Of a stretch of 64,000 nt of DNA, positions 28,781 through 47,955 are shown in pieces. The DNA comes from Clostridia bacterium (GTDB lineage Bacteria > Bacillota > Clostridia > Oscillospirales > CAG-272). The stretch lies in the NCBI GenBank assembly GCA_017456145.1, contig JAFTJZ010000039.1, positions 1-64,000 of the forward strand, read 5' to 3'. The notes under the pieces are model-generated. The model had not been told where the DNA came from and ran no database searches. It worked only from the letters and a program-made list of their open reading frames with translations. Position 1 is the first letter of the stretch. Each line of letters opens with the position of its first letter. The translations under genes were made by a program, and so were the position numbers.

Positions 28781-28848
28781 CACTTTACTCCTTATCTTTC
28801 TTTTAAAAAGCGTTCTTCCTACTGAATACAAGTTGTTTCAAAAAAGTG

Positions 28849-33995: not shown

Positions 33996-35192
33996 ATGAA
34001 AATTTTGGTCGTAAACGCCGGCAGCTCGTCGCTCAAGTATCAGCTGTTCGACATGGACGAGCACCGAGTCATCGCAAAGGGAAATTGCGAGAAGATCGGC
34101 ATCGGCGGTTTTGTCACACACAAGCGTCCCGGTAAGGACGATTATGCGGCGGAGGTGACCCTGAAGGATCACGACGACGCCATTACGCTGGTGCTTAAGC
34201 TCCTGACCGACGCCGAGCTGGGCGTCATTGCAACGGTCGATGAGATCGATGCCATCGGTCACCGCGTCGCGCACGGCGGTAAGCTCAAGGAATCTACGCT
34301 GGTCAGCGATGAGACGCTGGAGTATCTGTATTCCATCGTCGGCATCAATCCTTTGCACGGCCCCCCTGCCATCAAGGGGATCGAGGCTTGCCGCAAGGCT
34401 TGCCCGAATAAGCCCATGGTCTGCGTTTTCGACACTGCATTCCACAGCACCATGGAGCCGGTTTCCTACATCTACCCCCTGCCTTACGAATATTACGAGC
34501 AGTTCGGCCTGCGTCGCTACGGTTTCCACGGCACCTCGCACCGCTACGTTGCGGGTCGTGTGGCAGAGCTTGTCGGCAAGCCGCTCTGTGAGCTGAAGGT
34601 CATCACCTGCCACCTGGGCAACGGTTCTTCCATTACTGCGATCAAGAACGGCAAGGTCGTGGACACCACCATGGGATTCACTCCCAATGAGGGTGTTCCC
34701 ATGGGTACCCGCTGCGGCACCATCGACCCCACCATCGTTCCGTATCTGATGAAACAGCTGAACGTCACTCCCGACGAGATGGACAACATTCTCAACAAGA
34801 AGTCCGGACTCTTGGGTGTGTCCGGTGTCTCCAGTGACTGCCGCGAGGTCAACGCTGCTGCCGATGCCGGTAACGCACGTGCCAAGCTCGCCATCGATCA
34901 GCTGATCCACTACACCAAGAAGATCATCGGCTCCTACGTTGCCGAGATGAACGGCGTGGATGCCATCGTCTTTACCGCAGGGATCGGCGAGAACGACCGC
35001 AAGCTGCGTCAGAGCATCTGCACCGATATGGATTTTGTCGGTATCAAGATGGACAACGAGCGCAACGCCGAGTGCCCCCGCGGTACGGCCTGCGATCTGA
35101 CGGCTGAGGGTTCTCGCGCCAAGGTGTACGTCATCCCCACCGATGAGGAATACATGATCGCTCTGGACACCCAGAAGATCGCCAACGCTTAA
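33996..35192 (+). CDS. ackA: Acetate (acyl) kinase
   Basis: This 398-residue cytoplasmic enzyme converts an acyl phosphate plus ADP to acid plus ATP. The ASKHA signatures are complete: MKILVVNAGSSSLKYQLFDM at the N-terminus, the catalytic region RRYGFHGTSHRYV, HLGNGSSI, and GIGEND near the end. The ATG at 33996 follows CGGAGG. As the first gene of the microcompartment operon, it probably takes the acyl phosphate made by PduL (lactyl phosphate if lactaldehyde is the aldehyde, otherwise acetyl or propionyl phosphate) to yield ATP. No encapsulation peptide is visible, so it probably works outside the shell, unlike the other enzymes of the cluster. Confidence 0.93.
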   Translation: MKILVVNAGSSSLKYQLFDMDEHRVIAKGNCEKIGIGGFVTHKRPGKDDYAAEVTLKDHDDAITLVLKLLTDAELGVIATVDEIDAIGHRVAHGGKLKESTLVSDETLEYLYSIVGINPLHGPPAIKGIEACRKACPNKPMVCVFDTAFHSTMEPVSYIYPLPYEYYEQFGLRRYGFHGTSHRYVAGRVAELVGKPLCELKVITCHLGNGSSITAIKNGKVVDTTMGFTPNEGVPMGTRCGTIDPTIVPYLMKQLNVTPDEMDNILNKKSGLLGVSGVSSDCREVNAAADAGNARAKLAIDQLIHYTKKIIGSYVAEMNGVDAIVFTAGIGENDRKLRQSICTDMDFVGIKMDNERNAECPRGTACDLTAEGSRAKVYVIPTDEEYMIALDTQKIANA

Positions 35193-35217: not shown

Positions 35218-35961
35218 ATGCCCAATCTGTTTGAAATCAAAAAGCAGATGGTCGAGGTCGGTAAGCTGATGTATGAAAAGGGCTTGGTCATCGCCAAGCA
35301 CGGCAACATCTCTTATAAGATCAGCGACAATGAATATATCTGCACGCCCGGCGGACTTTGCAAGGCGTTTCTGACGCCCGATAAGCTGGTTCGCGTCAAC
35401 GCCAAGGGCGAGTCGCTCGAGGCAGGAAAAAAGCCCACCTCCGAGATCAAGATGCACATTGCCATCTATGCGCTGCGCCCCGACATCAACTGTATCGTTC
35501 ACGCTCAGCCCGCAGCCACCACCGCCTTTGCCATCTCGGATATCGATGCGGCCAAGTTTGTGCTGCCCGGTGACAAGAAAGCGTACTTCGGCTACGTTCC
35601 CGCAGCCGCTTACGACAAGGCAAATCACGATGCCAACACGCTCGCGCAGTACATGAGCGACAAGGCGCAGCAGGCATACGTCTTCCACGGCGACTCCTCG
35701 CTGTCGGTCGGCGATACACTGTATAACGCCTTTGATGCCATCGAGTCCTTGGAGCACTACTGCAAGGTCAGCATTTATGCGCGTGCGCTCAATGCCATTG
35801 AGGGTGAGCCCGTCTGCCGCTGCGAGCAGCAGAAAAAGGCTGCACAGACATCCGCCGCGCCGACCTCCTCTGCGATGAGTCATTCCACCGTGGCAGGTGC
35901 TCCCGAGGCGGCAACGGTCAATGAGGTCATCCGCCGCGTTATTGCGGAGCTGAATCGGTGA
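35218..35961 (+). CDS. Class II aldolase (fuculose/rhamnulose-phosphate type) with C-terminal encapsulation peptide
   Basis: This 247-residue enzyme probably cleaves L-fuculose- or L-rhamnulose-1-phosphate to lactaldehyde and DHAP. Class II aldolase features are HGNIS (phosphate site), TPGG, PTSEIKMH with the catalytic Glu, INCIVHAQP and YVFHGDSS. The usual HxH zinc pair reads HAQ, so one zinc-ligand His is replaced by Gln. After the catalytic domain, an Ala/Ser/Thr/Pro linker (about 209-231) leads to the amphipathic helix ATVNEVIRRVIAELNR (232-247), a typical microcompartment targeting peptide. It lies 25 bases after ackA. It is the only candidate signature enzyme of this compartment. Confidence 0.85.
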   Translation: MPNLFEIKKQMVEVGKLMYEKGLVIAKHGNISYKISDNEYICTPGGLCKAFLTPDKLVRVNAKGESLEAGKKPTSEIKMHIAIYALRPDINCIVHAQPAATTAFAISDIDAAKFVLPGDKKAYFGYVPAAAYDKANHDANTLAQYMSDKAQQAYVFHGDSSLSVGDTLYNAFDAIESLEHYCKVSIYARALNAIEGEPVCRCEQQKKAAQTSAAPTSSAMSHSTVAGAPEAATVNEVIRRVIAELNR

Positions 35962-36093
35962 TTGGGGCGCTGCCCCAAACTCCGCCAAAAGCCTTTTGAG
36001 AAAAAAGAAGATCGCAAGTGATCTTCAAGCTTGGCCCGGCGGCTGCGTCCGTCGTTTCGGGATAACCCGAAAATTCCGAGCATCGGCTTTTGG
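35962..36093. repeat. Intergenic hairpin element, copy in the microcompartment operon
   Basis: GGGGC-GCT-GCCCC (35964-35976) is followed by CTCCGCCAAAAGCC, whose CCAAAAGCC (35985-35993) pairs with GGCTTTTGG at 36085-36093. The spacing between the arms holds further short stems (GATC-type, CGGGATAACCCG). It shares its prefix with the copies at 1-49 and 42580-42631. Confidence 0.55.
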
Positions 36094-36149
36094 ATGCCCA
36101 AAAAATTTGGATCAAGTGAATTTACTTCAATATTATAAAGGAGAATACA

Positions 36150-37607
36150 ATGGCAATCAATTGGACTGAGGCACAGATCAATGAGATCGTTGGTGCTGTG
36201 CTCAAAGAGATCGGCAACGAGAAGACGGCTGCTTGCGGGACTTGGAATTCCACCTCCTACTGCGGACGCAAGCTGATCGGTATCTATGCCGATATGAACG
36301 ACGCCATCGCAGCCGCAAACGAAGGCTACAAGGCTGTACGCGCCATGTCGGTGGCTGAAAGAGAAAAATTGATCACCGCCATCCGCACTCTGACCCGCGA
36401 GGAGGCGTCCGTTATGGCGGCGCTGGGCGTGGCAGAGACCAAGATGGGACGTGTCGATCACAAAACCGCAAAGCACATTCTGGTGGCGGATAAGACCCCC
36501 GGCACCGAAGATATCAAGGCAGAGGCAATTACGGGTGACAATGGTCTGACTCTGACCGAGATGGCACCTTTTGGCGTGGTGGGCAGCATCACTCCCTCCA
36601 CCAACCCCTCCGAGACGGTTATTTGTAACAGCATTGGTATGATCGCGGCAGGCAACGGTGTGGTATTTAACCCCCACCCCAACGCGATCTCTACCTCCAA
36701 CTATGCGGTTGACCTGGTCAACCGTGCATCCGCCAGCGTCGGCGGCCCCGAGGTTCTGGTCGCATCGGTGGTCAAGCCCACTATGGAGACGGCACAGGTC
36801 ATGTATAAGTCTCCTCTGATCCGACTTCTGGTCTGCACCGGTGGTCCCGGCGTCGTCAAGGCGGTGCTCTCCTCCGGCAAGAAGGCGATCGGCGCAGGTG
36901 CGGGTAACCCCCCCGTTATCGTCGACGACACGGCAGATATTGCAAAGGCCGCCAAGGACATCATCGACGGCTGTACCTTTGATAATAACCTCCCCTGCAT
37001 CGCAGAGAAGGAAGTCTTCGTATTTAATAACGTTGCCGATCAGCTCATCGACGGCATGATGCACCACGGCTGCTACAAGCTGACGCTGCAGCAGGCTGAT
37101 GCACTGGCTGACATTGTTCTTGACAAGGTCAAGGACGACAAGGGCAACGTCATCAAGCGCGTGGTCAATCGCGACTGCGTCGGCCGTGACGCCAAGGTGC
37201 TGCTCGCCAAGATGGGGATCACGGTGGGTGACGACATCCGCTGCATCATCGCTGAGGTTCCCTTTGAGCATCTGTTCGTGCAGGAGGAGCTGATGATGCC
37301 GATTCTCGGTATCGTTCGCGTGGCAAATATCGATGAGGCGATCGACAAGGCCTGCAAGGCTGAGCACGGCAACCGCCACACCGCTCATATGCACTCCAAG
37401 AATATCGACAACCTTTCTCGCTTTGCCAAGGCGGTGGAAACCACCATCTTCGTCAAGAACGCGCCCTCTTATGCGGGCATCGGCTTTGGCGGTGAGGGTC
37501 ATACCACCTTTACCATTGCAGGTCCTACCGGTGAGGGTATCACCAGTGCGCGCAGCTTTACTCGCCGCCGCCGCTGCGTGATGGCAGACAGTTTCCGCAT
37601 CATTTGA
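36150..37607 (+). CDS. pduP: CoA-acylating aldehyde dehydrogenase with N-terminal encapsulation peptide
   Basis: This 485-residue enzyme oxidises an aldehyde (lactaldehyde or propionaldehyde) with CoA and NAD+ to the acyl-CoA. Residues 5-21 form the amphipathic targeting helix WTEAQINEIVGAVLKEIG, and a linker leads to the ALDH core at about 40. The catalytic Cys lies in FDNNLPCIAEKE (about residue 286). SITPSTNPSETVICN and the GGPGVVKAVLSSGKKAIGAGAGN nucleotide region are typical of the PduP/EutE group. Its product feeds PduL and then acetate kinase. ATG follows AAAGGAG. Confidence 0.92.
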   Translation: MAINWTEAQINEIVGAVLKEIGNEKTAACGTWNSTSYCGRKLIGIYADMNDAIAAANEGYKAVRAMSVAEREKLITAIRTLTREEASVMAALGVAETKMGRVDHKTAKHILVADKTPGTEDIKAEAITGDNGLTLTEMAPFGVVGSITPSTNPSETVICNSIGMIAAGNGVVFNPHPNAISTSNYAVDLVNRASASVGGPEVLVASVVKPTMETAQVMYKSPLIRLLVCTGGPGVVKAVLSSGKKAIGAGAGNPPVIVDDTADIAKAAKDIIDGCTFDNNLPCIAEKEVFVFNNVADQLIDGMMHHGCYKLTLQQADALADIVLDKVKDDKGNVIKRVVNRDCVGRDAKVLLAKMGITVGDDIRCIIAEVPFEHLFVQEELMMPILGIVRVANIDEAIDKACKAEHGNRHTAHMHSKNIDNLSRFAKAVETTIFVKNAPSYAGIGFGGEGHTTFTIAGPTGEGITSARSFTRRRRCVMADSFRII

Positions 37608-37622
37608 TCGGGTGGAAATAAA

Positions 37623-38819
37623 ATGAACGAAAATCAGATCAATGCATTAGTCAAAAGAGTATTGGACAGCTTGGATGCAGACAATGCCGCAACATGTGGC
37701 TCGCCTGCGGACGGTATGGCTAAGGTAGCGGTTCTGACCAAGCCGGGGTGCATTGAGCTCCGCGACGTTGCAATTCCGCCCTTGGGCGATGACGATATTC
37801 TGGTCAAGGTGGAAGGCGCGGGCATTTGCGGTACCGATGTTCACGAGTGGCGCGGTGACCCCTTTGGCATGTGTCCTGTAATCCTCGGTCATGAGGGAAC
37901 GGGCGAGATCATTGCTATGGGGAAAAACGTCAAACGGGATACCAACGGTCGTCCGCTTAAGATCGGAGACAAGGTCGTTACCTCGGGAATTACCTGTGGA
38001 GAATGCCACGTTTGCCGTATGCATCCGGCATATTCCAATCTTTGCGATACACAAAGTGTGTTTGGTCTGTTCCCGATGGATCCGAACAACCCGCTCAACG
38101 GATGGTTTGCAAGCCATTTGCTGATCCGCGGTCGGGGCGCAACCTATTTTGAGGTCAACGATCTCAATCTCAATCAGCGTATGCTGCTGGAGGCGGCTGC
38201 GGTCTGCGTTCATGCTCTCGGCAGAGCGCAAAAGACGGGGCTGCTGAATTTCAATGCCAAGGTCGTCGTTATGGGCTGCGGCCCGATCGGGCTGCTTATG
38301 TGTGCCGTGCTCCGCGCGGCGGGCATCAACCATATTATCGCGATCGACGGTACGGAAAAGAGGTTGCAGATGGCCAAGCGCCTGGGCGTCAAAACGACGA
38401 TCAACTTCAAGGAGATCCCGACGCTGTCAGATCGTGTCAGCCTCGTTAAGGAGCTGTCCGACGGACAGGGTGCGGATTTTGCCTTCCAATGCACGGGAGC
38501 ACCTGCGGCTGCCGCAAGCATTTATGAGTACATTCGCCGCGGTGGCGGTCTGTGCGAAATGGGCTTTTTCGTCAACAACGGCGAATATGATATCAATCCG
38601 CATTTCGCCATGTGTAACAAAGAAATCACGTTGGTGGGCTCCTGGGGCTATCCCGCGGAGGATTACCCGACGACCATTGCTTTCCTGCGTCAGTGTCGTG
38701 AGATGAATATCCCGATTGAGGAGCTCATCACGCACACCTTCCCGCTGGATCGCCTGGATGAGGGAATGCGCGTCAACGTGTCGCAAGAGGGCATCAAAAT
38801 CTGCTATCTTGCCCAATGA
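37623..38819 (+). CDS. Zinc-dependent alcohol dehydrogenase 1 with N-terminal encapsulation peptide
   Basis: This 398-residue medium-chain dehydrogenase has a targeting helix at residues 3-17 (NENQINALVKRVLDSLD), a short Ala/Asp/Gly linker, and the GroES-like domain from about 32. Catalytic-zinc residues are in GICGTDVHE and GHEGTGE, structural-zinc cysteines in CGECHVC ... NLC, and the Rossmann motif is VMGCGPIGLL. In the compartment it would reduce the aldehyde (lactaldehyde to 1,2-propanediol) and regenerate NAD+ for the aldehyde dehydrogenase. It starts 15 bases after that gene and is followed by a close paralog of identical length, so the pair arose by tandem duplication. Confidence 0.9.
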   Translation: MNENQINALVKRVLDSLDADNAATCGSPADGMAKVAVLTKPGCIELRDVAIPPLGDDDILVKVEGAGICGTDVHEWRGDPFGMCPVILGHEGTGEIIAMGKNVKRDTNGRPLKIGDKVVTSGITCGECHVCRMHPAYSNLCDTQSVFGLFPMDPNNPLNGWFASHLLIRGRGATYFEVNDLNLNQRMLLEAAAVCVHALGRAQKTGLLNFNAKVVVMGCGPIGLLMCAVLRAAGINHIIAIDGTEKRLQMAKRLGVKTTINFKEIPTLSDRVSLVKELSDGQGADFAFQCTGAPAAAASIYEYIRRGGGLCEMGFFVNNGEYDINPHFAMCNKEITLVGSWGYPAEDYPTTIAFLRQCREMNIPIEELITHTFPLDRLDEGMRVNVSQEGIKICYLAQ

Positions 38820-38868
38820 TTCAGTAATCCATAAAACCACATATATAGAGAAAGAAAGGAAATTCAAT

Positions 38869-40065
38869 ATGGAATTGACAAGTTCTCAGGTCGAGAGCGT
38901 TGTCCGCAAGGTGCTTGCCAGCATGGGCGCTGCCCCCGCTGCATCCTCCTGCGCTTCCGGCATGGCAAAGGTCGCTGTGCTGACCGCTCCCAAGACCATC
39001 GAAATTCAAGAGGTTCCGATCCCTGAGCTGGGCGATGACGATATTCTCGTCAAGGTCGAGGGCGCAGGCGTTTGCGGTACCGACGTTCACGAGTGGAAGG
39101 GTGATCCCTTCGGTATGTGCCCCGTTATTCTCGGTCACGAGGGTACCGGTGAGGTCATTGCACTCGGTAAGAACATCAAGTGCGACACAGCAGGCAAGCC
39201 CCTGAAGGTCGGCGACAAGATCGTCACCTCGGTCATCTCCTGCGGTGAGTGCCACACCTGCCGTATGCATCCCGGTAACACCAACCTTTGCGACGCACAG
39301 GGTATCTTCGGTCTGATGCCTCAGAGCAAGGAGAATCCTCTCAACGGTTGGTTTGCAACCCACCTGCTCATCAGAGCCAAGGGTGCTACTTATTTTCAGG
39401 TCAACGGTCTGGACGTCAAGCAGAGAATGCTGCTTGAGGCTGCTTGCGTTTGCGTTCACGCAGTTGCTCGCGGTCAGTCTACCGGCTTGATCAACTTCAA
39501 CTCCAAGGTTCTCGTGCTTGGTTGCGGTCCCATTGGTCTGCTGATGTGCTCCGTTCTGCGTGCTGCAGGCGTTAACCACATCATCGCCATCGACGGCTCC
39601 GAGAAGAGACTGGATATGGCAAAGAGAATGGGCGTTAAGACCACCATCAACTTCAAGGAGGTCCCCGACGCTGCAGAGCGTGTCAAGATCGTCAAGGAGC
39701 TCTCCGATGGTCAGGGCGCGGACTTCGCCTTCCAGTGCACGGGTGCTCCCGCAGCGGCTGCATCGATCTACGACTACATCCGTCGCGGCGGCGGTCTGTG
39801 TGAGGTCGGTTTCTTCGTCAATAATGGCGAATATTCCATCAATCCCCACTTTGCTATGTGTAACAAGGAAATCACCATCGTCGGCTCTTGGGACTACACC
39901 GCTGAGGACTATCCCACGACCATGGCATTCCTTCGCCAGGCAAAAGAGATGAACATTCCGATCGAAGAGCTGATCACGCACTCCTTCCCGCTGGAAAAGC
40001 TCAACGAAGCAATGGAAGTTAACGTCTCGCAGGCAGGTATCAAGATTTGCTATCTTCCCGACTGA
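38869..40065 (+). CDS. Zinc-dependent alcohol dehydrogenase 2 with N-terminal encapsulation peptide
   Basis: This 398-residue paralog of the preceding gene has the same motif set (GVCGTDVHEW, GHEGTGEV, CGECHTC ... NLC, VLGCGPIGLL). Residues 2-18 are the targeting helix ELTSSQVESVVRKVLASMG, whose sequence differs from that of ADH 1 although the helix pattern is the same. The linker AAPAASSCAS is also different. AAAGGAA precedes the ATG at 38869; the open frame extends farther upstream into the previous gene. Keeping two near-duplicates suggests different aldehyde or cofactor preference, but the sequence alone does not show which. Confidence 0.9.
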   Translation: MELTSSQVESVVRKVLASMGAAPAASSCASGMAKVAVLTAPKTIEIQEVPIPELGDDDILVKVEGAGVCGTDVHEWKGDPFGMCPVILGHEGTGEVIALGKNIKCDTAGKPLKVGDKIVTSVISCGECHTCRMHPGNTNLCDAQGIFGLMPQSKENPLNGWFATHLLIRAKGATYFQVNGLDVKQRMLLEAACVCVHAVARGQSTGLINFNSKVLVLGCGPIGLLMCSVLRAAGVNHIIAIDGSEKRLDMAKRMGVKTTINFKEVPDAAERVKIVKELSDGQGADFAFQCTGAPAAAASIYDYIRRGGGLCEVGFFVNNGEYSINPHFAMCNKEITIVGSWDYTAEDYPTTMAFLRQAKEMNIPIEELITHSFPLEKLNEAMEVNVSQAGIKICYLPD

Positions 40066-40095
40066 TCCGATCAGTGCGGATATTGGAGGTAAGCT

Positions 40096-40413
40096 ATGGC
40101 ACTTGGTATGATCGAATGTTTCGGCTTTGTCACCTCGGTGGTTGTCGCCGATAAGGGTCTGAAGACCGCTGACGTCGAGCTGGTCGCCATTGACAAAAAC
40201 AAGCCCGCGAACGCAGAAAAGTGCGCGGTGCCTCTGGTTATGGTGGTCAAGTTTGAGGGCTCGGTCTCCGCTGTCGATATGGCAGTACAGGCCGGCAAGG
40301 CAGAAGCAGAAAAGCGCGGTATGTTCATCGCATCCCGCATCATCCCGCGTCAGGAGGAGCAGATTGAATGGCTGGCTCACCTGAATGCACTTGGGAAAAG
40401 CTCGACGATCTGA
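40096..40413 (+). CDS. BMC-H shell protein 1 (single BMC domain with C-terminal extension)
   Basis: This 105-residue protein has a single Pfam00936-type domain (MALGMIECFGFVTSVVVADKGLKTADVEL, then GSVSAVDMAVQAGKAEAEK and IIPRQEEQIEWL). The sequence DKNKPANAEKCAVPL in the pore and loop region differs from the PduA-type duplicates downstream, and the C-terminal tail is longer. Proteins like this form hexameric tiles of the shell. Gene order directly after the second ADH and 30 bases from it places it in the operon. The pore should be distinct from that of the other BMC-H proteins, so it may pass a different metabolite. Confidence 0.9.
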   Translation: MALGMIECFGFVTSVVVADKGLKTADVELVAIDKNKPANAEKCAVPLVMVVKFEGSVSAVDMAVQAGKAEAEKRGMFIASRIIPRQEEQIEWLAHLNALGKSSTI

Positions 40414-40492
40414 TCGGATCGTTGTCAAACCGTTCAAAAATATTTGAAAATAAAAAACAAACCAAATGAAATCAAAAGGAGATTTACTTATT

Positions 40493-40768
40493 ATGATGGA
40501 AGCTCTTGGTATGGTAGAGACCCGCGGCCTGGTTGCCGCAATTGAGGCTGCAGATGCTATGTGCAAGGCTGCAAACGTTGTTCTGATCGGCTCCGAGAAG
40601 ATCGGCTCCGGCTTGGTAAGCGTCATGGTCCGCGGCGACGTCGGCGCTGTTAAGGCTGCTGTTGAGGCAGGCGGTGCTGCTGCTGCTAACCTTGGCGAGG
40701 TCGTTGCGACCCACGTCATCCCCAGACCTCACTCCGATGTGGAGAAGGTTCTGCCCGTTATCAAATAA
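40493..40768 (+). CDS. BMC-H shell protein 2 (PduA/EutM-like, duplicate a)
   Basis: This is a canonical hexamer-forming BMC-H protein of 91 residues ([54 protein letters not shown]). The pore region KIGSGLV is that of PduA/EutM-type proteins. Two adjacent ATGs (40493, 40496) follow AAAAGGAG. The second matches the start of the near-identical copy at 41279 and may be the true one. Proteins of this kind are usually the most abundant shell tile. A different BMC-H gene lies between the two copies. Confidence 0.93.
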
Positions 40769-40882
40769 TCTACTGTTCGTAACTGCTGCATGAGCGCATC
40801 GCTCGTGCTGTGATCTGCCCATGCGCGCGGCTGCCAAGACAGCCGCGGGTGGGCACCCGTCAAAAGAAAGGAACGGTATATT

Positions 40883-41170
40883 ATGGAGGACAAGGCAATC
40901 GCTTTACTTGAGGTGCAGGCGATGGTCGCGGCGATCGTCGGTCTTGATGCGATGCTCAAGGCTGCCAACGTACAGTTTATCTGCGCAGAGAAACGTCTGG
41001 GCGGCAAGCTGGTTACGGTGGTGGTTGAGGGCTCCGTGTCTGCGGTGACTGCTGCACTGGAGGCCGGCGTTGCTGCTGCCGCAGAGGTTGGCAGCGTGAA
41101 GCTGAGCGAGGTCATTGCACGCCCTCATCCCGGCATTCTTCGTTTCCTCAAGAAGGAAAAGAAGGCATAA
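40883..41170 (+). CDS. BMC-H shell protein 3 (divergent)
   Basis: This 95-residue single BMC domain lies between the two PduA-like copies. It shares their layout (ALLEVQAMVAAIVGLDAMLKAANV, GGKLVTVVVEGSVSAVTAALEAG, VIARPHPGI) but has the pore-loop sequence RLGGKLV instead of KIGSGLV and a basic C-terminal end, RFLKKEKKA. The basic tail may face the lumen or bind partner proteins or nucleic acid, which would be unusual for a BMC-H tile. RBS AAAGGAA precedes ATG. Its position suggests it arose from an old duplication and then specialised. Confidence 0.9.
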   Translation: MEDKAIALLEVQAMVAAIVGLDAMLKAANVQFICAEKRLGGKLVTVVVEGSVSAVTAALEAGVAAAAEVGSVKLSEVIARPHPGILRFLKKEKKA

Positions 41171-41278
41171 GGGAGGCAAGACACCCGAGCGGTCTTGCGT
41201 CGGCTCTGCCGATATCGGCTCGGAATATCAAATTTGTTGGTTCATCCCAAACTATAAATTTTAATGGAGGATTCTACA

Positions 41279-41551
41279 ATGGAAGCTCTTGGTATGGTTG
41301 AGACCCGTGGTCTGGTTGCCGCAATCGAGGCTGCCGATGCTATGTGCAAGGCTGCAAACGTTGTCCTGATCGGTTCTGAGAAGATCGGTTCCGGTTTGGT
41401 AAGCGTCATGGTTCGTGGCGACGTCGGTGCTGTTAAGGCTGCTGTTGAGGCAGGCGGCGCTGCTGCTGCTAACCTTGGTGAAGTCGTTGCTACGCACGTC
41501 ATTCCCAGACCCCATGGCGACGTTGAGAAGGTTCTGCCTAAGATCGGCTAA
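41279..41551 (+). CDS. BMC-H shell protein 4 (PduA/EutM-like, duplicate b)
   Basis: This 90-residue protein is nearly identical to shell protein 2. The visible changes are [12 protein letters not shown] at the C-terminus against [12 protein letters not shown], and most nucleotide differences are silent. GGAGG precedes the ATG at 41279. The near-identity despite silent drift suggests strong protein-level selection, recent gene conversion, or both. Together with its twin it should supply most of the facet tiles. Confidence 0.93.
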
Positions 41552-41853
41552 TCTTTTCTCGTCTATATGCGTCGCGTGGCTTTATGCCGCGCGGCGCATG
41601 GCTCGTATTCAAACCCCGAGCGAGGGGGTAGTCGCTCAGAGTGCATTTTTTGACTTGCACCAAATAAAAAGCAAGACTTGACTTGCGGCAGTGCATAAGC
41701 GCTGCTTTCCGCCGCCGTGGCGGTAGGTTCGTGTATCATTAACTTTAATTTTGTCAATAATTCTCCGCTTGCGGAGATCAAGGGCGGCCTGTTTTCAGGT
41801 GCGGCCCGCATAAATCAGTAAAAAATATACTACATATACAGAGAAAGGCTTTC
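41552..41853. other. Gene-free spacer before pduL
   Basis: No gene is visible. It contains short inverted repeats (TCTCCGC-TTGCGGAGA near 41761; GCCGCGCGGCGC near 41590) and GGGCGGCCTG ... CAGGTGCGGCCC near 41785. These could be mRNA-processing or partial termination structures that tune shell-to-enzyme ratios, but this is not shown. Confidence 0.35.
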
Positions 41854-42540
41854 ATGATGGAATACAATGCATCAATCGTCGCCGAAATGGTAAAAAAGGT
41901 GCTTGCCGAGCTGGAGAACAAGCCCACCGCGCAGCCCAAGGAAACTGTACAGAGTAAGAGTGCCGACGGAGAGATCCCCGTGGGTATCTCCAACCGCCAT
42001 ATTCACCTCTCACGCGCTGACGTTGACACCCTGTTCGGCGCGGGCTACGAGCTGACTCCCATGAAGGATCTCTCACAGCCCGGACAGTATGCTTGCAAGG
42101 AGACACTGACGCTGGTCGGTCCCTCCATGCGCGCCATCGAAGGTGTCCGTGTTCTCGGCCCGATCCGCAAGGCGTCGCAGGTTGAGATCTCCAAGACCGA
42201 TTCCTTCACGCTTAAGGTCAAACCGCCCGTACGCGAGTCGGGTAAGATCGACGGCTCCGCGCCCGTGATTATCGTCGGGCCCAAGGGAATTGTTTCCCTG
42301 AAGGAGGGCTGCATTATCGCTAACCGCCATATCCATATGAGTCCCGATGATGCCAAAAAATTCAACGTTACAGACGGCGATTATATTGACGTGGATGTCA
42401 ATTCCGGTACGCGCCGTACCCGCTGGTTTGATGTTCAGATCCGCGTGAATGAGCAGTTCCGTCTGGAAATGCACGTGGATACCGACGATGCCAATGCAGT
42501 TGGTATTGGTAACGGCAGCACGGTAACGGTTGTAAAATAA
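41854..42540 (+). CDS. pduL: PduL-type phosphotransacylase with N-terminal encapsulation peptide
   Basis: This 228-residue enzyme converts acyl-CoA plus phosphate to acyl phosphate plus CoA, recycling CoA inside the compartment. Residues 3-21 (YNASIVAEMVKKVLAELE) are a targeting helix, followed by a Lys/Thr/Pro/Gln linker. The two zinc-binding repeats are intact: GISNRHIHLS and ANRHIHMSPDDA. The fold is unrelated to Pta and is the usual microcompartment form. Two adjacent ATGs (41854, 41857) follow GAGAAAGG. The product goes to acetate kinase at the start of the operon. Confidence 0.95.
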   Translation: MMEYNASIVAEMVKKVLAELENKPTAQPKETVQSKSADGEIPVGISNRHIHLSRADVDTLFGAGYELTPMKDLSQPGQYACKETLTLVGPSMRAIEGVRVLGPIRKASQVEISKTDSFTLKVKPPVRESGKIDGSAPVIIVGPKGIVSLKEGCIIANRHIHMSPDDAKKFNVTDGDYIDVDVNSGTRRTRWFDVQIRVNEQFRLEMHVDTDDANAVGIGNGSTVTVVK

Positions 42541-42737: not shown

Positions 42738-42986
42738 ATGTTAAAAGGAAAAGTCGTATCTAACATCGTTTCGACCAGAAAGCAAGCGGCTCTTGTCGGC
42801 TCCAAGTTTTTGGAGGTTCGTCTGATCGAAAACAATGAGATGACCGATAAATTTATTATAGCCGTGGACAGTGTTGGAGCCGGTATCGGTGAGATCGTCC
42901 TGATTACCACGGGCAGCGGCGCACGTTTGGCGCTGCACAACAAGGAAACACCGACCGATGCGGTGGTTGTGGGTATTGTCGATTGA
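42738..42986 (+). CDS. BMC-P vertex protein (EutN/CcmL family)
   Basis: This 82-residue protein forms pentamers that cap the vertices of the polyhedral shell. Characteristic features are the opening MLKGKVVSNIVST, the KFLEVRLI strand, AVDSVGAGIGEIVLITTGSGARL and the closing DAVVVGIVD. It is the only BMC-P gene in the window and is sufficient for closure of a shell. AGGAGAAT precedes the ATG. Confidence 0.95.
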   Translation: MLKGKVVSNIVSTRKQAALVGSKFLEVRLIENNEMTDKFIIAVDSVGAGIGEIVLITTGSGARLALHNKETPTDAVVVGIVD

Positions 42987-43056: not shown

Positions 43057-44388
43057 TTGGAACTGAACGAGTTAAAGTCGCTGCTCCAAGCCGCCGGCGT
43101 TGTTGGTGCGGGGGGCGCGACATTCCCTACATATGTCAAACTCGCGCCCGGCGCAGACACTCTGGTGATCAACGCCGCGGAGTGTGAGCCTTTGTTATAT
43201 ACGGATCTGACGATTATGGAGCTGCACATGGATAAGGTGCTGTCCGGTATTCGTACCGTGATGGAGGCAGCCTCGATCCCCTCCGCTTTGATCGGTATCA
43301 AGTCGAGCAAGGGAAAGCTGCTCCACCTGATGCATGGTCAGGAGCTTGCACCCGGGATCAAAGTCTGCTTGCTCCCCGACGTCTACCCGATGGGCGATGA
43401 GATCAATTTGATCTATGAAACGACGGGGCGCCTTGTGCCTCCCGGTAAGTTGCCCATGACTGTGGGTGTGATCGTCATGAATCTGGAGACGGTATATAAT
43501 ATTCATCTGGCACGCTATGAAGATCGGCCCGTCATTGAGAAGTGGCTGACGATCAACGGCAACGTCAAGCCTTGCGTGATCCGCGTTCCGTTGGGCGTTC
43601 GCGTGCGGGATCTGTTTTTACAATTGGGCATCAAGGTGCCCGCCGGTCACGTTGTGATGGATGGTGGCCCTTCAATGGGGCGTATCATTGACATCAATAC
43701 CGCAATTGTGACCAAAGCGACCAAGGGACTTTTGATCCTGCCTGAGGATATTCCCGCAGTCGTGACCAAGCAGCGTGATATGCGTGTGCAGCTTGCCATG
43801 GCATCCTCCGCTTGCTGCGGCTGCTCCCGTTGTACCGATCTTTGCCCCCGTGCTCTGCTCGGCTATCCGCTCGAGCCCCACAAGCATATCCGTGTGACGG
43901 TTTCCTCCGAGCATATCAACCCCGAGGAGGTGCTCTCCGCGACACTTTGCTGCGCTTGCGGGATATGCGAGATCGCAGCCTGCTGTCAGGAAATCTCGCC
44001 TCGCGCCGTCATCGCCGAGCATAAGACCATTCTCGGCAAGGCGAAGATGCGTTTTACGGCGACCGATGACTCACAATATAAGGTCAGCCCCGATCGTGCA
44101 TACCGTCAGATGTCCTCTGCGCGCTGGATGCAATATCTGGGCGTGGATCGATATAGCGCACATCCCGAATACATTTCCGAGATGCCGCAGTTCGATCGCG
44201 TCGAGATCCGGCTCAGTCAGCATATCGGTGTACCTTCCGTGCCTCGGGTTGCTGTCGGAAATCCGGTTAGCGTCGGGCAGATGATTGCCGCTCCCGCAGG
44301 CGGTCTCTCCGTTGCTCAGCACGCCCCGATCGACGGAACCGTGGTCGCTCTGGACGCCAATCGTATCGTCATTGAGGCGGTACGCTGA
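43057..44388 (+). CDS. pduS: PduS-like flavin/Fe-S electron-transfer protein
   Basis: This 443-residue RnfC-like protein has a flavin- or NADH-binding domain (GAGGATFPTYVKL and NAAECEPLLYTD near the N-terminus), an SLBB-like segment and two Fe-S cysteine clusters. C-x2-C-x2-C-x3-CP is at about 253-263 and CCACGICEIAACC at about 297-309, the latter with altered spacing. PduS-type proteins move electrons or reactivate cofactors across the shell together with PduT. The start is TTG, 11 bases after AAAGGAG. No corrinoid enzyme is encoded in the window, so a role in NAD+/NADH or ferredoxin balance of the lumen is more likely than cobalamin reduction. Confidence 0.88.
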   Translation: MELNELKSLLQAAGVVGAGGATFPTYVKLAPGADTLVINAAECEPLLYTDLTIMELHMDKVLSGIRTVMEAASIPSALIGIKSSKGKLLHLMHGQELAPGIKVCLLPDVYPMGDEINLIYETTGRLVPPGKLPMTVGVIVMNLETVYNIHLARYEDRPVIEKWLTINGNVKPCVIRVPLGVRVRDLFLQLGIKVPAGHVVMDGGPSMGRIIDINTAIVTKATKGLLILPEDIPAVVTKQRDMRVQLAMASSACCGCSRCTDLCPRALLGYPLEPHKHIRVTVSSEHINPEEVLSATLCCACGICEIAACCQEISPRAVIAEHKTILGKAKMRFTATDDSQYKVSPDRAYRQMSSARWMQYLGVDRYSAHPEYISEMPQFDRVEIRLSQHIGVPSVPRVAVGNPVSVGQMIAAPAGGLSVAQHAPIDGTVVALDANRIVIEAVR

Positions 44389-44405: not shown

Positions 44406-44951
44406 ATGTATCAAGCCATTGGAGTTATAGAATTGAAGAGTATTGCCAAGGGTATTGAGGCTTGTGACGTTGCGCTCAAGAGCGCAGGGATTCGCTTGGT
44501 CTCCTCGCACCCCTCCTGCCCGGGAAAATACGAAATTATCATCACGGGAAATATCTCAAGCGTGACCGCCTCGATCGACGTGGTTCGCGCCCGCTTTAGT
44601 GCGTCGTTGATCGATACCTCGATTATGGGACGCATTGATCCGACCGTGATCACCGCTTTGTTTGGCACGCAAGCTGCCGGAAGAGAGGGGAGCGTCGGTG
44701 TTATTGAGACCTTTTCGGCGGCAAGTGCCATCAAGGCGGCAGATATTGCGGTCAAGACGGCAAAGGTTGAGATTTACGATCTGCGTATCTCCCGCGGCAT
44801 GGGCGGTAAGGGCATCGTCATTATGACGGGCGATGTCGGAGATGTGACCGCCTCGGTGGAGGCGGGCGCAAAATATGCGGCGGATCAGGGCTTGCTGGGC
44901 AACAGCACGGTCATTCCCGCACCGCATAAAGAGCTTTGGGAGCAATTGTAA
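44406..44951 (+). CDS. pduT: PduT-like tandem BMC-T shell protein with central Fe-S site
   Basis: This 181-residue protein consists of two BMC domains (1-90 and 95-181: MYQAIGVIELKSIAKG and GSVGVIETFSAASAIKAAD) and forms pseudo-hexameric trimers. HPSCPGKY places a cysteine at residue 38, the position that holds the [4Fe-4S] cluster in the pore of PduT. It follows the PduS-like gene by 17 bases, consistent with the known PduS-PduT pairing. The trimer is therefore a likely electron conduit through the shell. Confidence 0.9.
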   Translation: MYQAIGVIELKSIAKGIEACDVALKSAGIRLVSSHPSCPGKYEIIITGNISSVTASIDVVRARFSASLIDTSIMGRIDPTVITALFGTQAAGREGSVGVIETFSAASAIKAADIAVKTAKVEIYDLRISRGMGGKGIVIMTGDVGDVTASVEAGAKYAADQGLLGNSTVIPAPHKELWEQL

Positions 44952-44952
44952 T

Positions 44953-45336
44953 ATGGAAGATAACAAATTGAGTCTGGACCAAATGCACGATAAAATGCGC
45001 ATCGTGCAGGAGCTGGTTCCCGGCAGACAGATCACACTGGCGCATATCATCGCAAATCCCGGACAGATCCTCTACCAAAAGCTGGGTCTTGATCCCGCAG
45101 TGGAATATTCGCGTTCTGCCATCGGTGTGCTGACCATCAGCCCCTCCGAGACGGCGGTCATTGCCGCGGATATTGCCATTAAATCCTCCAACGCCGACCT
45201 TGGCTTTGTCGACCGTTTCAGCGGTACACTGATCCTGACGGGTACGGTCTCCGCCGTCGAGTCCTCCTTTAACGCCATTGCAACCTATGTGCGCGACAAG
45301 CTGGGCTTTACCGTCTGTGAGGTCACAAGAACCTGA
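44953..45336 (+). CDS. EutS/PduU-like circularly permuted BMC-H protein
   Basis: This 127-residue protein has an N-terminal extension, VQELVPGRQITLAHIIANPG, which forms the beta-barrel cap typical of PduU and EutS. A permuted BMC domain follows (AIGVLTISPSETAVIAADIAIKSS, FSGTLILTGTVSAVESSFNAI). Such hexamers block or gate the pore and, in PduU, interact with PduV. The gene begins one base after the stop of the PduT-like gene and precedes the EutP/PduV GTPase, so a PduU-PduV type partnership is plausible. The ribosome site is weak, so coupling to upstream translation is likely. Confidence 0.9.
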   Translation: MEDNKLSLDQMHDKMRIVQELVPGRQITLAHIIANPGQILYQKLGLDPAVEYSRSAIGVLTISPSETAVIAADIAIKSSNADLGFVDRFSGTLILTGTVSAVESSFNAIATYVRDKLGFTVCEVTRT

Positions 45337-45360: not shown

Positions 45361-45888
45361 GTGAAAAAACTGATATTGATCGGTCGTGTCGCCGCAGGGA
45401 AGACGACACTGATGCAAGCACTCAAGGGGGAGCAGCTTTCCTACTGTAAAACGCAGTACGTTTACTATACCGATACCATCATCGACACCCCCGGTGAGTA
45501 TACAGAAAACGGGCGACTGGCATCGGCACTTGCGCTGTATACCTACGAGGCGGATGTGGTCGGATTGCTGATCTCGTCCAATTATCCCTACAACCCTTTC
45601 CCTCCCAACTGCACCACGTCCTGCAATCGCGACGTGATCGGCCTTGTGACGGGCATTGATAAGCCCGACGGCAATCCCGAGCGCGTGGAGCGCTGGCTGC
45701 GGCTGGCAGGATGCAAAACGGTCTTTCACATCAGCTCGTATACGGGTGAGGGAATCCGCGACGTCATCGCCTATCTGGACGATGGTACGGATGAGAGGAT
45801 CTCTCCCCCGGAGGCTGCCGCGCAGACCGCCAATCACACCGAAAGAAACGCAGCGACTGTCGCCTGCGACGAGGTGAGTCATGAGTAA
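45361..45888 (+). CDS. EutP/PduV-family GTPase-like protein
   Basis: This 175-residue P-loop protein of the EutP/PduV family has GRVAAGKTTL (Walker A) and DTPGEY (G3). The G4 position, normally TKxD, reads TGID, so guanine specificity may be relaxed. The C-terminal 25 residues are a polar, likely unstructured tail. PduV is implicated in microcompartment movement, and EutP relatives have also been linked to acetate kinase activity. The start is GTG. The ParA-type gene starts 8 bases before this one ends, indicating translational coupling and a shared task. Confidence 0.85.
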   Translation: MKKLILIGRVAAGKTTLMQALKGEQLSYCKTQYVYYTDTIIDTPGEYTENGRLASALALYTYEADVVGLLISSNYPYNPFPPNCTTSCNRDVIGLVTGIDKPDGNPERVERWLRLAGCKTVFHISSYTGEGIRDVIAYLDDGTDERISPPEAAAQTANHTERNAATVACDEVSHE

Positions 45889-46672
45889 AACCAAAGTTAT
45901 CTGCTTTGCCAATAACAAAGGCGGCAGCGGAAAATCCACCACCTGCTCCAACGTGGGCTATAACCTCTCGCAGATGGGAAAGAGAGTGCTGCTGATCGAC
46001 GGCGATATGCAGCTCAATCTGACGCTCTCCTTCTTCCCTGAGGACATAGCGCTTGGCTTTGTGCAGAGTGGCAATAATCTTTACACTGCCATCAAGGAGC
46101 AAAAGTCACTGCAGGAGTATATCGTTCACACACCGTATGACGGCGTGGATATCGTTCCTTCCTCCACTTTGATGAGCTCCATTGAGTATGAGCTGTTCAC
46201 CAAGTGGCAAAGGGAATTTATTCTGCGCAAGTGCCTGGAGCCCGTCAAGGCAACGGGGGTTTACGATTACGTGCTGATCGATTCTCCTCCGACGCTGGGG
46301 GGCTGGGTCATGAATATTATGTGTGCGTCGGATTATTTGGTCGTTCCCGTAGAGGCAAGTCCTTGGGGACTGTTTGGACTGGCGAATATGTTTGATTTCG
46401 TCGGGCAGGTGCGCCAGATTGCACCGAATCTCAACATTCTGGGCATCGCGATCACCAAGGCGGATGAGAGAAAGAACTACTTCCACCAGACGGTTGACGC
46501 ATTACGCGGATATGAAAATATCAAATTGCTTGAAAATTATATTCGCATCGACAGCTCGATCGAGTGGGCACAGGACAACAGCAAGCCCGTTGGCGCCTAC
46601 AAGAAGAGCAGCCGCAGCGCGAAGGAATATTATGATTTGACAAAGGAGATCTTAGAATATGCCGATCGGTAA
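45881..46672 (+). CDS. ParA/MinD-type ATPase, candidate microcompartment-positioning protein (McdA-like)
   Basis: This 263-residue protein has a deviant Walker A, NNKGGSGKST (signature Lys 13 and Lys 18), Walker A' LLIDGDMQ (40-42) and Walker B YVLIDSPP (Asp 134). The C-terminal part contains a basic YKKSSRSAKEYY stretch, as used by ParA proteins for nonspecific DNA binding. ParA ATPases bind the nucleoid when ATP-bound and are released by an adaptor that stimulates hydrolysis. The location within the shell operon, overlapping an EutP/PduV gene and the small disordered protein, argues for positioning the compartment and not plasmids. No ParB or parS-like repeat is nearby. Confidence 0.85.
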   Translation: MSKTKVICFANNKGGSGKSTTCSNVGYNLSQMGKRVLLIDGDMQLNLTLSFFPEDIALGFVQSGNNLYTAIKEQKSLQEYIVHTPYDGVDIVPSSTLMSSIEYELFTKWQREFILRKCLEPVKATGVYDYVLIDSPPTLGGWVMNIMCASDYLVVPVEASPWGLFGLANMFDFVGQVRQIAPNLNILGIAITKADERKNYFHQTVDALRGYENIKLLENYIRIDSSIEWAQDNSKPVGAYKKSSRSAKEYYDLTKEILEYADR

Positions 46673-47033
46673 GAACAGCATTTCCCGCGTAGCCGGTGAG
46701 CCGGCAGTTGAGTCTGAAAAAAAGACCGCAGCCGCCGAGACATCCGCAAAAGACCCCAAGCCCGCTGCCCCTGAGAATGTCGCAGCTGCCAAGCCCGCGA
46801 CCACCGCCAAAACCACCAAGCCCCGAACCACAGCCGCAACCAAGGCCTCTGGCTCCTCTGCGCCCAAAAAGAGCGCACCCAAAAAAGCCGCCGCCCCCAA
46901 AACCGAGACGGTTGAGCGGATCGAGACCGTCGCCAAGACTGTGACCAAGGCTGCCAAGCCCGCCCCCGCCAAGAGCGAGGATGTCAAGGCGTACGTTACC
47001 ATTACAGATGAACTTCCGACCTACCTGCTTTGA
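46659..47033 (+). CDS. Intrinsically disordered Ala/Lys/Pro-rich protein, candidate ParA adaptor (McdB-like)
   Basis: This 124-residue protein contains about 27 Ala, 19 Lys and 12 Pro, has no Cys or Trp, and has a net positive charge of about 9. A distinct N-terminus, MPIGKNSISRVA, and C-terminus, DVKAYVTITDELPTYLL, flank a low-complexity basic middle. It overlaps the ParA gene by 14 bases. ParA-stimulating partners commonly carry a basic, disordered N-terminus and a separate cargo-binding end. The ordered C-terminal end could bind a shell protein. The carboxysome McdB C-terminal Trp is absent, so this would be a different adaptor type. Confidence 0.65.
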   Translation: MPIGKNSISRVAGEPAVESEKKTAAAETSAKDPKPAAPENVAAAKPATTAKTTKPRTTAATKASGSSAPKKSAPKKAAAPKTETVERIETVAKTVTKAAKPAPAKSEDVKAYVTITDELPTYLL

Positions 47034-47106: not shown

Positions 47107-47955
47107 ATGTTAGCTACTTTGAATGACGTATTACCCCGCGCGAAAGCCGAGCATTACGCTGTCGGTCTGTTTAACACCGTTGACCTTGAGATGGCAAAGG
47201 GCGTTATCGCCGCTGCCGAGGAGCTGCGCGCTCCCATCATCATCGGTACTGCAGAGGTTCTGACCCCCTTCGCATCGCTGGAGGATCTGTCTTCCTTCCT
47301 GATCCCGCTGGCAAAGAAGGCAACCGTTCCGGTCGTTCTGCACTTTGACCACGGTCTGAACCTTTCCATGGTTAAGAAGGCAATCCAGCTGGGTTTCACA
47401 TCCGTTATGTACGACTGCTCCACCGACGACTACTATTCCAACATGGGTCGTGTTCGTTGCCTGGTTCAGTATGCGCATGACAGAGGCGTAACCGTTGAGG
47501 CAGAGCTTGGTCACGTCGGTGCAAACGACGGCAGTGCCGAGAACCACGGCCCCGGCGACCACAGCATCTACACCGATCCCGCACAGGCGAAGGAGTATGC
47601 AGAGGCTACCGGTGTTGACGCACTGGCAATCGCTATCGGTACCGCTCACGGTGCATATAAGTCCAAGCCGAAGCTCGATTTTGAGAGACTGGAAACCATT
47701 GCCAACATGATCAAGACACCTCTGGTTCTGCACGGCGGCTCGGGTCTGTCCGATGACGACTTCAAGCAGGCCGTTGCCAAGGGTATCTCTAAGATCAACA
47801 TTTTCACCGATATCAACGCTGCCTTCGCAAAGACCGCCGCTGCTATGTACAAGCCCGGCATGGGTCAGACCGACCTGATGCCCGCCGTCAAGCAGGCTGT
47901 CAAAGAGGCAACCATGGAGAAGATTAAGCTGTTCGGTGCTGCCGGCAGATATTGA
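47107..47955 (+). CDS. fba: Class II fructose-bisphosphate (or tagatose-bisphosphate) aldolase
   Basis: This 282-residue zinc-dependent TIM-barrel aldolase has LHFDHG (metal His and catalytic Asp), EAELGHVG, TAHGAY, LHGGSGLSDDD and KINIFTD all in place. It catalyses reversible aldol cleavage or condensation of DHAP with glyceraldehyde-3-phosphate or a related aldose. As the last gene of the microcompartment operon (73 bases after the disordered protein), it could recapture DHAP released by the class II aldolase, or could act on tagatose-1,6-bisphosphate. It carries no targeting peptide, so it should be cytosolic. RBS GAGGAG lies 8 bases before ATG. Confidence 0.9.
   Translation: MLATLNDVLPRAKAEHYAVGLFNTVDLEMAKGVIAAAEELRAPIIIGTAEVLTPFASLEDLSSFLIPLAKKATVPVVLHFDHGLNLSMVKKAIQLGFTSVMYDCSTDDYYSNMGRVRCLVQYAHDRGVTVEAELGHVGANDGSAENHGPGDHSIYTDPAQAKEYAEATGVDALAIAIGTAHGAYKSKPKLDFERLETIANMIKTPLVLHGGSGLSDDDFKQAVAKGISKINIFTDINAAFAKTAAAMYKPGMGQTDLMPAVKQAVKEATMEKIKLFGAAGRY

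Follow-up and report, generated by a model that had tools for sequence, protein, structure and literature searches.

In the McdAB scheme described for carboxysomes, a ParA-family ATPase (McdA) occupies the nucleoid in its ATP-bound form, and a tether (McdB) stimulates the ATPase at one end and holds the shell of the bacterial microcompartment (BMC) at the other (PMC8262871). McdA binding by H. neapolitanus McdB requires the N-terminal 20 residues, among them key lysines, and these residues also suffice for it (PMC12204374). Attachment to carboxysomes depends on the C-terminal Trp of McdB, which Tyr and Phe can replace to a varying degree (PMC11321042). A report of 2014 already mentioned ParA genes in BMC loci (PMC4207490), putative McdAB systems with a C-terminal aromatic residue were described for several BMC operons in 2021 and 2024 (PMC8262871, PMC11321042), and the putative McdB-like proteins of non-carboxysome BMCs, from PDU and GRM loci, have a Tyr or Phe among their five C-terminal residues (PMC11321042). 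The placement of catabolic microcompartments in cells is considered an open question (PMC8262871, PMC13052382). Here we describe a ParA-type ATPase gene and the small gene directly following it in a BMC operon of a Clostridia bacterium (Oscillospirales; CAG-272). The operon lies within positions 1 to 64,000 of contig JAFTJZ010000039.1 (assembly GCA_017456145.1), and this stretch of 64,000 nucleotides is referred to as the window. Most likely, the pair spreads the sugar-degrading compartments of this gut bacterium along its chromosome; we assign a probability of about 0.72 to the reading that ParA and its partner form an McdAB-like system distributing a metabolosome over the nucleoid.

Three genes overlap successively on the plus strand of the window, by 8 and 14 bases: a EutP/PduV-like GTPase gene (45361..45888), the ParA-type ATPase gene (45881..46672) and an open reading frame (ORF) of 124 residues (46659..47033). 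An original prediction, made from the letters of the window, had described the same three genes within a shell operon, the third encoding an Ala/Lys/Pro-rich protein, and its coordinates, lengths and overlaps were reproduced. The ATPase, for which an McdA-like role is proposed, matches AAA_31 with 176.7 bits (cut-off, 27). Its deviant Walker A motif, NKGGSGKST (45914..45940, plus strand, read from the sequence), contains the signature lysine, as expected of a ParA-family McdA; this form of the motif is a trait of the type 2 beta-McdA and alpha-McdA proteins (PMC8262871). The Walker A residues K13 and K18 are invariant across 37 aligned ParA/Soj rows. The window ParA is 82–87% identical to two near relatives and 65–73% identical to 33 others (alignment A1), and 32% identical to the genome's own Soj. 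A PADLOC match of the ParA was set aside as uninformative, as it spans only 41 residues at the P-loop.

The 124-residue partner has no match in Pfam or NCBIfam, and its McdB-like character was recognized from two terminal motifs that recur in ORFs at the equivalent place in other BMC loci. On the plus strand, these are the basic N-terminal motif MPIGKNSISRV (46659..46691), a putative ParA-contacting peptide, and the C-terminal tail LPTYLL (47013..47030), a putative docking tag; the intervening linker (46707..46988) is rich in Ala, Lys, Pro and Thr and, judging from its composition, presumably disordered. Among 70 partners, that of the window included, the Gly of the N-terminal motif is conserved in 70, the following Lys in 66, and an Arg or Lys three residues past the Ser/Ala in 70. 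These two fixed basic positions correspond to the charged N-terminus of McdBs that are encoded beside mcdA. The Pro and the penultimate Leu of the tail are also invariant in the 70 partners, as a consequence of their selection by the C-terminal motif. The residue at position -3 is Tyr in 48, His in 14, Trp in 5 and Phe in 2 of 69 partners. The window partner ends in ITDELPTYLL; the invariant C-terminal tryptophan of McdB is missing, and Tyr within the last five residues with an acidic residue near is the arrangement of the non-carboxysome McdB-like proteins. From the missing Trp, the original prediction had concluded that the partner would represent an independent adaptor class. Since McdAB-like pairs and their Tyr/Phe forms are already published (PMC11321042), the core idea is known, and the lack of Trp does not define a new class.

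The two ends and the linker of the partner differ in their conservation. Over 1355 locus pairs, from which the partners with a ParB_N domain were left out, the mean identity for ParA pairs that are 60–69% identical was 0.58 for the N-terminal end (eight residues) and 0.70 for the last six residues, compared to 0.26 for the linker, the lowest value between orthologues. In the partner type without ParB_N, the linker ranges from 33 to 172 residues (total length minus 30), and its composition among 69 partners is 20% Lys, 20% Ala, 11% Glu, 10% Pro and 9% Thr; McdBs likewise show a biased, low-complexity composition and variable length. The similar ends and the divergent linker indicate that both ends are constrained, whereas the middle is constrained in composition only. 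The two conserved ends would fit the two roles of McdB, McdA binding and cargo binding. The basic middle had been predicted to stimulate the ATPase. This assignment is not borne out, as it is the middle that varies, and the basic residues used by known ParA partners are near the N-terminus (PMC12204374); by analogy, the conserved basic N-terminal end is the likelier ATPase contact. Both motifs are short and could be mutated separately.

On the McdAB model, from which DNA binding, ATPase stimulation, shell docking and spacing are all transferred, ParA-ATP dimers would bind nucleoid DNA, and the partner would tether the BMC shell via its C-terminal tail ([LM]-P-x-[aromatic/His]-L-L). Across the flexible linker, the basic N-terminus of the partner (M-x-[IV]-G-K-x-[SA]-[IL]-x-R) would reach ParA. 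This contact would stimulate ATP hydrolysis and release ParA from the DNA, and the compartments, climbing the resulting ParA gradient, would become spaced out. As an alternative, ParA and the partner may serve the biogenesis or regulation of the microcompartment, such as its assembly or the formation of condensates, with the tail possibly being an encapsulation or degradation signal. The low-complexity Lys/Ala/Glu/Pro linker and the short, hydrophobic tail would suit such a role, and the McdBs of carboxysomes form condensates (PMC11321042, PMC8262871). However, cargo-positioning systems are usually encoded in this manner, with the gene of a partner bearing a charged N-terminus directly after that of ParA (PMC8262871), and we regard this alternative as very unlikely.

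Compared with the carboxysome McdAB of S. elongatus and H. neapolitanus, the locus has the same arrangement: in or near a BMC operon, a ParA gene is followed by one for a small protein of low complexity. Its partner also has a basic N-terminus and an aromatic residue near the C-terminus. Conversely, the residue at position -3 is mostly Tyr, as in the window, instead of Trp, some relatives of the window partner carry ParB_N, and the ParA has a lower phmmer score for McdA than for Soj. The McdB-like proteins of PDU and GRM loci are alike in having a non-carboxysome BMC operon nearby and Tyr or Phe among the final five residues, close to acidic ones (PMC11321042). In a comparison by description only, the present partners differ from them in the fixed [LM]-P-x-[YHWF]-L-[LM] tail, which includes His and Trp forms, and in the aldolase-type locus.

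The conservation of the pair was examined in one genome per species across 84,980 species. The ParA scan returned 290 stretches with ParA relatives, of which the best 80 were kept and do not constitute a random sample. BMC operon genes, as called by tblastn with the window proteins, were present in 47 of these 80 loci and were not recognized in the other 33. Many loci of the operon form come from metagenome-assembled genomes; Murimonas intestini (L041) and Konateibacter massiliensis (L036) have the pair outside the operon. When a partner was defined by position only (an ORF of at least 60 residues starting at most 30 bases from the ParA stop), both the N- and the C-terminal motif were found in 47/47 loci with BMC operon genes. 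For the other 33 loci, such an ORF was present in 31, with the N-terminal motif in 19, the C-terminal motif in 21 and both in 19. A search that required the C-terminal motif identified a partner in 69/80 loci, and the 14-base overlap recurred in 49 of the 69. In a separate draw, that from the order described below, a motif-bearing partner followed ParA in 4/4 genomes other than that of the window. The McdAB-like pair proposed for an aldolase-type metabolosome locus is thus carried by the related BMC loci (47/47) and the separately drawn genomes (4/4), as the original prediction would have it.

The DNA pattern of the partner's N-terminal motif has one match in the 2.9 Mb genome, at the 46659–47033 gene. 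This uniqueness, together with the motif-bearing ORF found by position alone in 47/47 BMC loci, indicates that the small ORF is more than a chance reading frame. The strict form of the pattern detects partners poorly: the motif is matched by 53 of 69 known partners, and of the five ParA-positive genomes of the order, only two had their partner found by the pattern. Across 245 genomes of the order, it gave 12 matches, two of them at a ParA gene, and the reversed control gave 12 matches in 10 genomes.

The presence of ParA tracks BMC genes. In an even draw of 245 genomes from the order, in which genomes with a match of E up to 1e-70 were counted as ParA-positive, BMC domains occurred in 5/5 ParA-positive genomes versus 26/240 ParA-negative ones; for the genomes of the same family within this draw, the corresponding values were 5/5 and 0/13. 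The Fisher p values without the window genome were 1.9e-4 (order) and 4.2e-4 (family). All four of the other ParA-positive genomes of this draw contain EutS, EutP, ParA, the motif-bearing partner and BMC operon genes. A class-wide draw yielded 3 ParA-positive genomes out of 341, including that of the window, too few for a test.

Several observations weigh against an McdAB-like role. In the family f77, 9/9 genomes carry ParA and 8/9 carry BMC domains, and the ParA does not lie beside the BMC genes, which are on separate contigs or, in genome G353, 104 kb apart. One genome of this family (G604, 76% complete) has ParA and the partner with no BMC match. The phmmer scores of the window ParA, which are bit scores only, were 118.4 for the ParA family protein 8ray, 82.7 for Soj (1wcv) and 52.8 for the McdA chain 6noo. 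The His at the aromatic position of the tail in 14/69 partners falls outside the published Tyr/Phe rule. A recognized partner is missing beside ParA at 13/89 loci, namely 11 of the 80 and the loci L085 and L087. Finally, the Pdu compartments of Salmonella were unaffected by an engineered McdAB or by the loss of ParA/MinD (PMC12866334), indicating that metabolosomes need not use an McdAB-type system.

The 11 partner-less loci among the 80 comprise L077 and ten loci that form a rhamnose-locus group. At all 13 partner-less loci, ParA presumably works with a diverged partner or with something else; the strict pattern, weak as a detector, found no N-terminal motif elsewhere in the 13 partner-less genomes. 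The partner-less ParA loci of the rhamnose group are L037, L047, L059, L061, L065, L067, L078, L079, L080 and L084. The genes after ParA in L037 encode an AraC-type regulator, an FGGY kinase and L-rhamnose isomerase (by Pfam), and homologues of these are present in most of the other nine.

The f77 loci away from BMC genes, the ParA-positive genome without a BMC match and the 33/80 loci outside BMC operons would be expected if the pair positioned another cargo, or BMCs in some lineages only, with the operon form as a later recruitment. An earlier tree with one Soj row, in which the loci within recognized BMC operons need only three changes, is also in line with this possibility. However, BMC domains are present in 33/33 and 8/9 of the genomes with such loci. 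In addition, five of the non-operon loci have an iron alcohol dehydrogenase homologue two or three ORFs after ParA (Pfam identity for L036 only), and a BMC-domain homologue is near ParA in five of the ten rhamnose-group loci (Pfam check for L037 only). The 33 loci were therefore dropped as counter-evidence to the BMC link, all of their genomes having BMC domains. Another cargo, or BMCs in some lineages only, is unlikely, and the distribution of metabolosomes by an McdAB-like pair remains the preferred interpretation.

The ParB_N domain (PF02195) was found in the partners at 12/89 loci, those of L035, L039, L064, L072 and L083 among the 80 loci and those of 7/9 f77 loci, above the cut-off in every case for which the score was shown. 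Within L110–L115, all from f77, the partner is of the ParB_N type in five of six loci, and none was recognized in L115. These partners, the higher phmmer score of the window ParA for Soj/ParA than for McdA, and the f77 pair, which adjoins an M18 aminopeptidase gene with lepA near in L111 (like neighbours were seen by eye in others), would be compatible with a DNA partition system, chromosomal or from a former plasmid, that lies within the BMC operon by chance. Conversely, HTH_ParB was found in 0/12 of the ParB_N-type partners, and the window partner is without any Pfam match. No complete ParB was detected in the window or in 90 loci, where a profile built from 11 ParB/Noc-like stretches of nine Soj loci matched only the ParB_N parts of partners, overlooking that of L064; tblastn over the loci with one ParB matched only the partner of L035. 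No parS within two mismatches is present in the window, and three sites with two mismatches were found among the 80 loci (L021, L022 and L075). The window thus lacks the combination that marks ParABS systems, a ParB with a helix-turn-helix (HTH) and a parS nearby. These results agree with the original prediction, which had set ParB and parS near the pair against an McdAB role, with the reservation that the partner at L083, a BMC locus, bears ParB_N.

Furthermore, the genome already has a partition locus elsewhere. Its own soj is followed by a complete ParB gene and preceded by a second ParB/Noc-like gene, both with HTH_ParB, and parS sites, three of them perfect, are present at this locus. The BMC-locus ParA, whose presence follows that of BMC genes, is split from the nine Soj rows of the tree, and this split is fully supported. 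With neither a complete ParB nor a parS within two mismatches, DNA partition was rejected for the window, and as an explanation of the pair it is very unlikely.

In the ParB_N-bearing partners, ParB_N lies between the same two conserved ends as the linker in the other partners. Their likeness to ParB, Spo0J and Noc consists in this domain, and they differ from these proteins by the lack of an HTH match in all 12 and by the conserved C-terminal tail; the window partner has no ParB_N. For the L091 partner, the best solved matches were ParB, Spo0J and Noc. ParB_N and a long Ala/Lys/Pro-rich stretch both lie between the conserved ends of the partner at L093:1902-3401, which is possibly an intermediate form. 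The final maximum-likelihood tree, which comprises 87 ParA/Soj rows including nine Soj rows, with 16 near-duplicate ParA rows left out, supersedes the earlier tree rooted on a single Soj row. In this tree, ParB_N-type loci are found at the base and again within the disordered type, and five changes are required. A tree with the disordered type forming one side of a branch is rejected by the AU (approximately unbiased) test (p 0.006, an indicative value, as the group was defined with the first tree already in view), indicating more than one change between the partner types, whether losses or gains. The simplest reading would be a repeated loss of ParB_N from a ParB-like adaptor, a repeated gain also being possible; whether the change ran from ParB_N to disordered is uncertain because the root lies on the long Soj branch, which was flagged by the program.

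These comparisons lead to a broader proposal, which we put forward tentatively and hold to be somewhat less probable than an even chance. Metabolosome adaptors may be stripped-down ParBs, which kept the basic N-terminus and the [LM]-P-x-[YHWF]-L-L docking tag and on several occasions exchanged ParB_N, a CTPase-type domain, for a disordered linker; the EutP of one lineage may have gained a related x-W-L-L tail and would dock at the same shell site as the ParA adaptor. ParB_N-bearing relatives would then lie on a path that connects a partner in DNA segregation with an adaptor of organelles. No ParB-derived BMC adaptor was found in the literature searched, mostly outside subscription papers, and partners that bear ParB_N without the ParB HTH and interchange with disordered types on the tree seem to be new.

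The gene upstream of the window ParA encodes a EutP/PduV-like protein, as its product matches PF10662 with 152.7 bits (cut-off, 21) and TIGR02528 with 130.3 bits, below the cut-off of 138.35. Of the 46 loci with EutP, 40 have it at most 52 bases upstream of ParA, whereas the pair occurs without a EutP match in 22 of the 33 loci lacking recognized BMC operon genes, some of which are short contigs. The three-gene module of EutP, ParA and partner suggested by the original prediction is therefore not a fixed one. In contrast to the window EutP, 10/46 EutP proteins have a Lys-rich C-terminal extension that ends in x-W-L-L (L009, L015, L017, L018, L020, L022, L023, L038, L057 and L081). These ten loci fall in one clade of 12 in the tree with one Soj row, so the tail was probably gained once. 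The 80 loci contain 3491 ORFs of at least 60 residues, and [LM]-P-x-[YFWH]-L-[LM] forms the end of 66 of them, namely 63 partners, two EutP proteins and one ORF on the other strand. This hints that two proteins, the partner and EutP, may use the tail as a docking tag. The literature searched, again mostly outside subscription papers, contained no EutP with such a tail, and its x-W-L-L form in one clade seems to be new. The related EutP tail suggests a first handle on the role of PduV/EutP at the shell.

The remaining operon genes specify an aldolase-type microcompartment. Upstream of the pair, on the plus strand, are genes for acetate kinase (33996..35192; PF00871, 469.8 bits), a class II aldolase (35218..35961; PF00596, 120.5 bits), a BMC-type aldehyde dehydrogenase (36150..37607; PF00171, and NF011927 with 659.7 bits), four BMC-H shell proteins (40096..41551; PF00936 for the first, further BMC matches and ORFs for the others), the PduL phosphotransacylase (41854..42540; PF06130, 259.5 bits), a EutN/CcmL pentamer protein (42738..42986; PF03319, 93.1 bits), an RnfC/PduS-like protein (43057..44388; PF01512 and PF13375), a PduT-like BMC-T shell protein (44406..44951; two BMC-domain stretches) and a EutS/PduU-like shell protein (44953..45336; PF00936, 45.1 bits; NF012012 EutS, 110.1 bits, below the cut-off of 123). 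Two Zn-alcohol dehydrogenases are also among the BMC operon genes around ParA, and the genome has seven BMC-domain matches in total. The original prediction had the operon end with ParA and the small protein. Instead, it runs on into a second class II aldolase gene, of the fructose-bisphosphate aldolase (FBA)/tagatose-bisphosphate type (47107..47955, plus strand; PF01116, 297 bits), which starts 73 bases past the small ORF. According to the BMC catalogue, a PF00596 aldolase is a feature of the PVM, GRM5 and ACI types of BMC (PMC8217296). No glycyl radical enzyme was seen by eye in the ORF lists (at least 150 residues for 26–37 kb; at least 70 residues for 36–56 kb).

Two of the BMC-H genes (40466–40768 and 41264–41551) encode near-identical proteins (87/89 residues) and are separated by a divergent BMC-H gene, an arrangement suggestive of gene conversion or of a recent duplication. 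The PF00596 aldolase, the aldehyde dehydrogenase, both alcohol dehydrogenases and PduL (35218–42540) each have a short terminal segment that by eye resembles an encapsulation peptide. Farther upstream in the window, two large lipoprotein-like genes (24429–26561 and 26630–28831) form a tandem of paralogues with similar N-terminal parts, as judged by eye.

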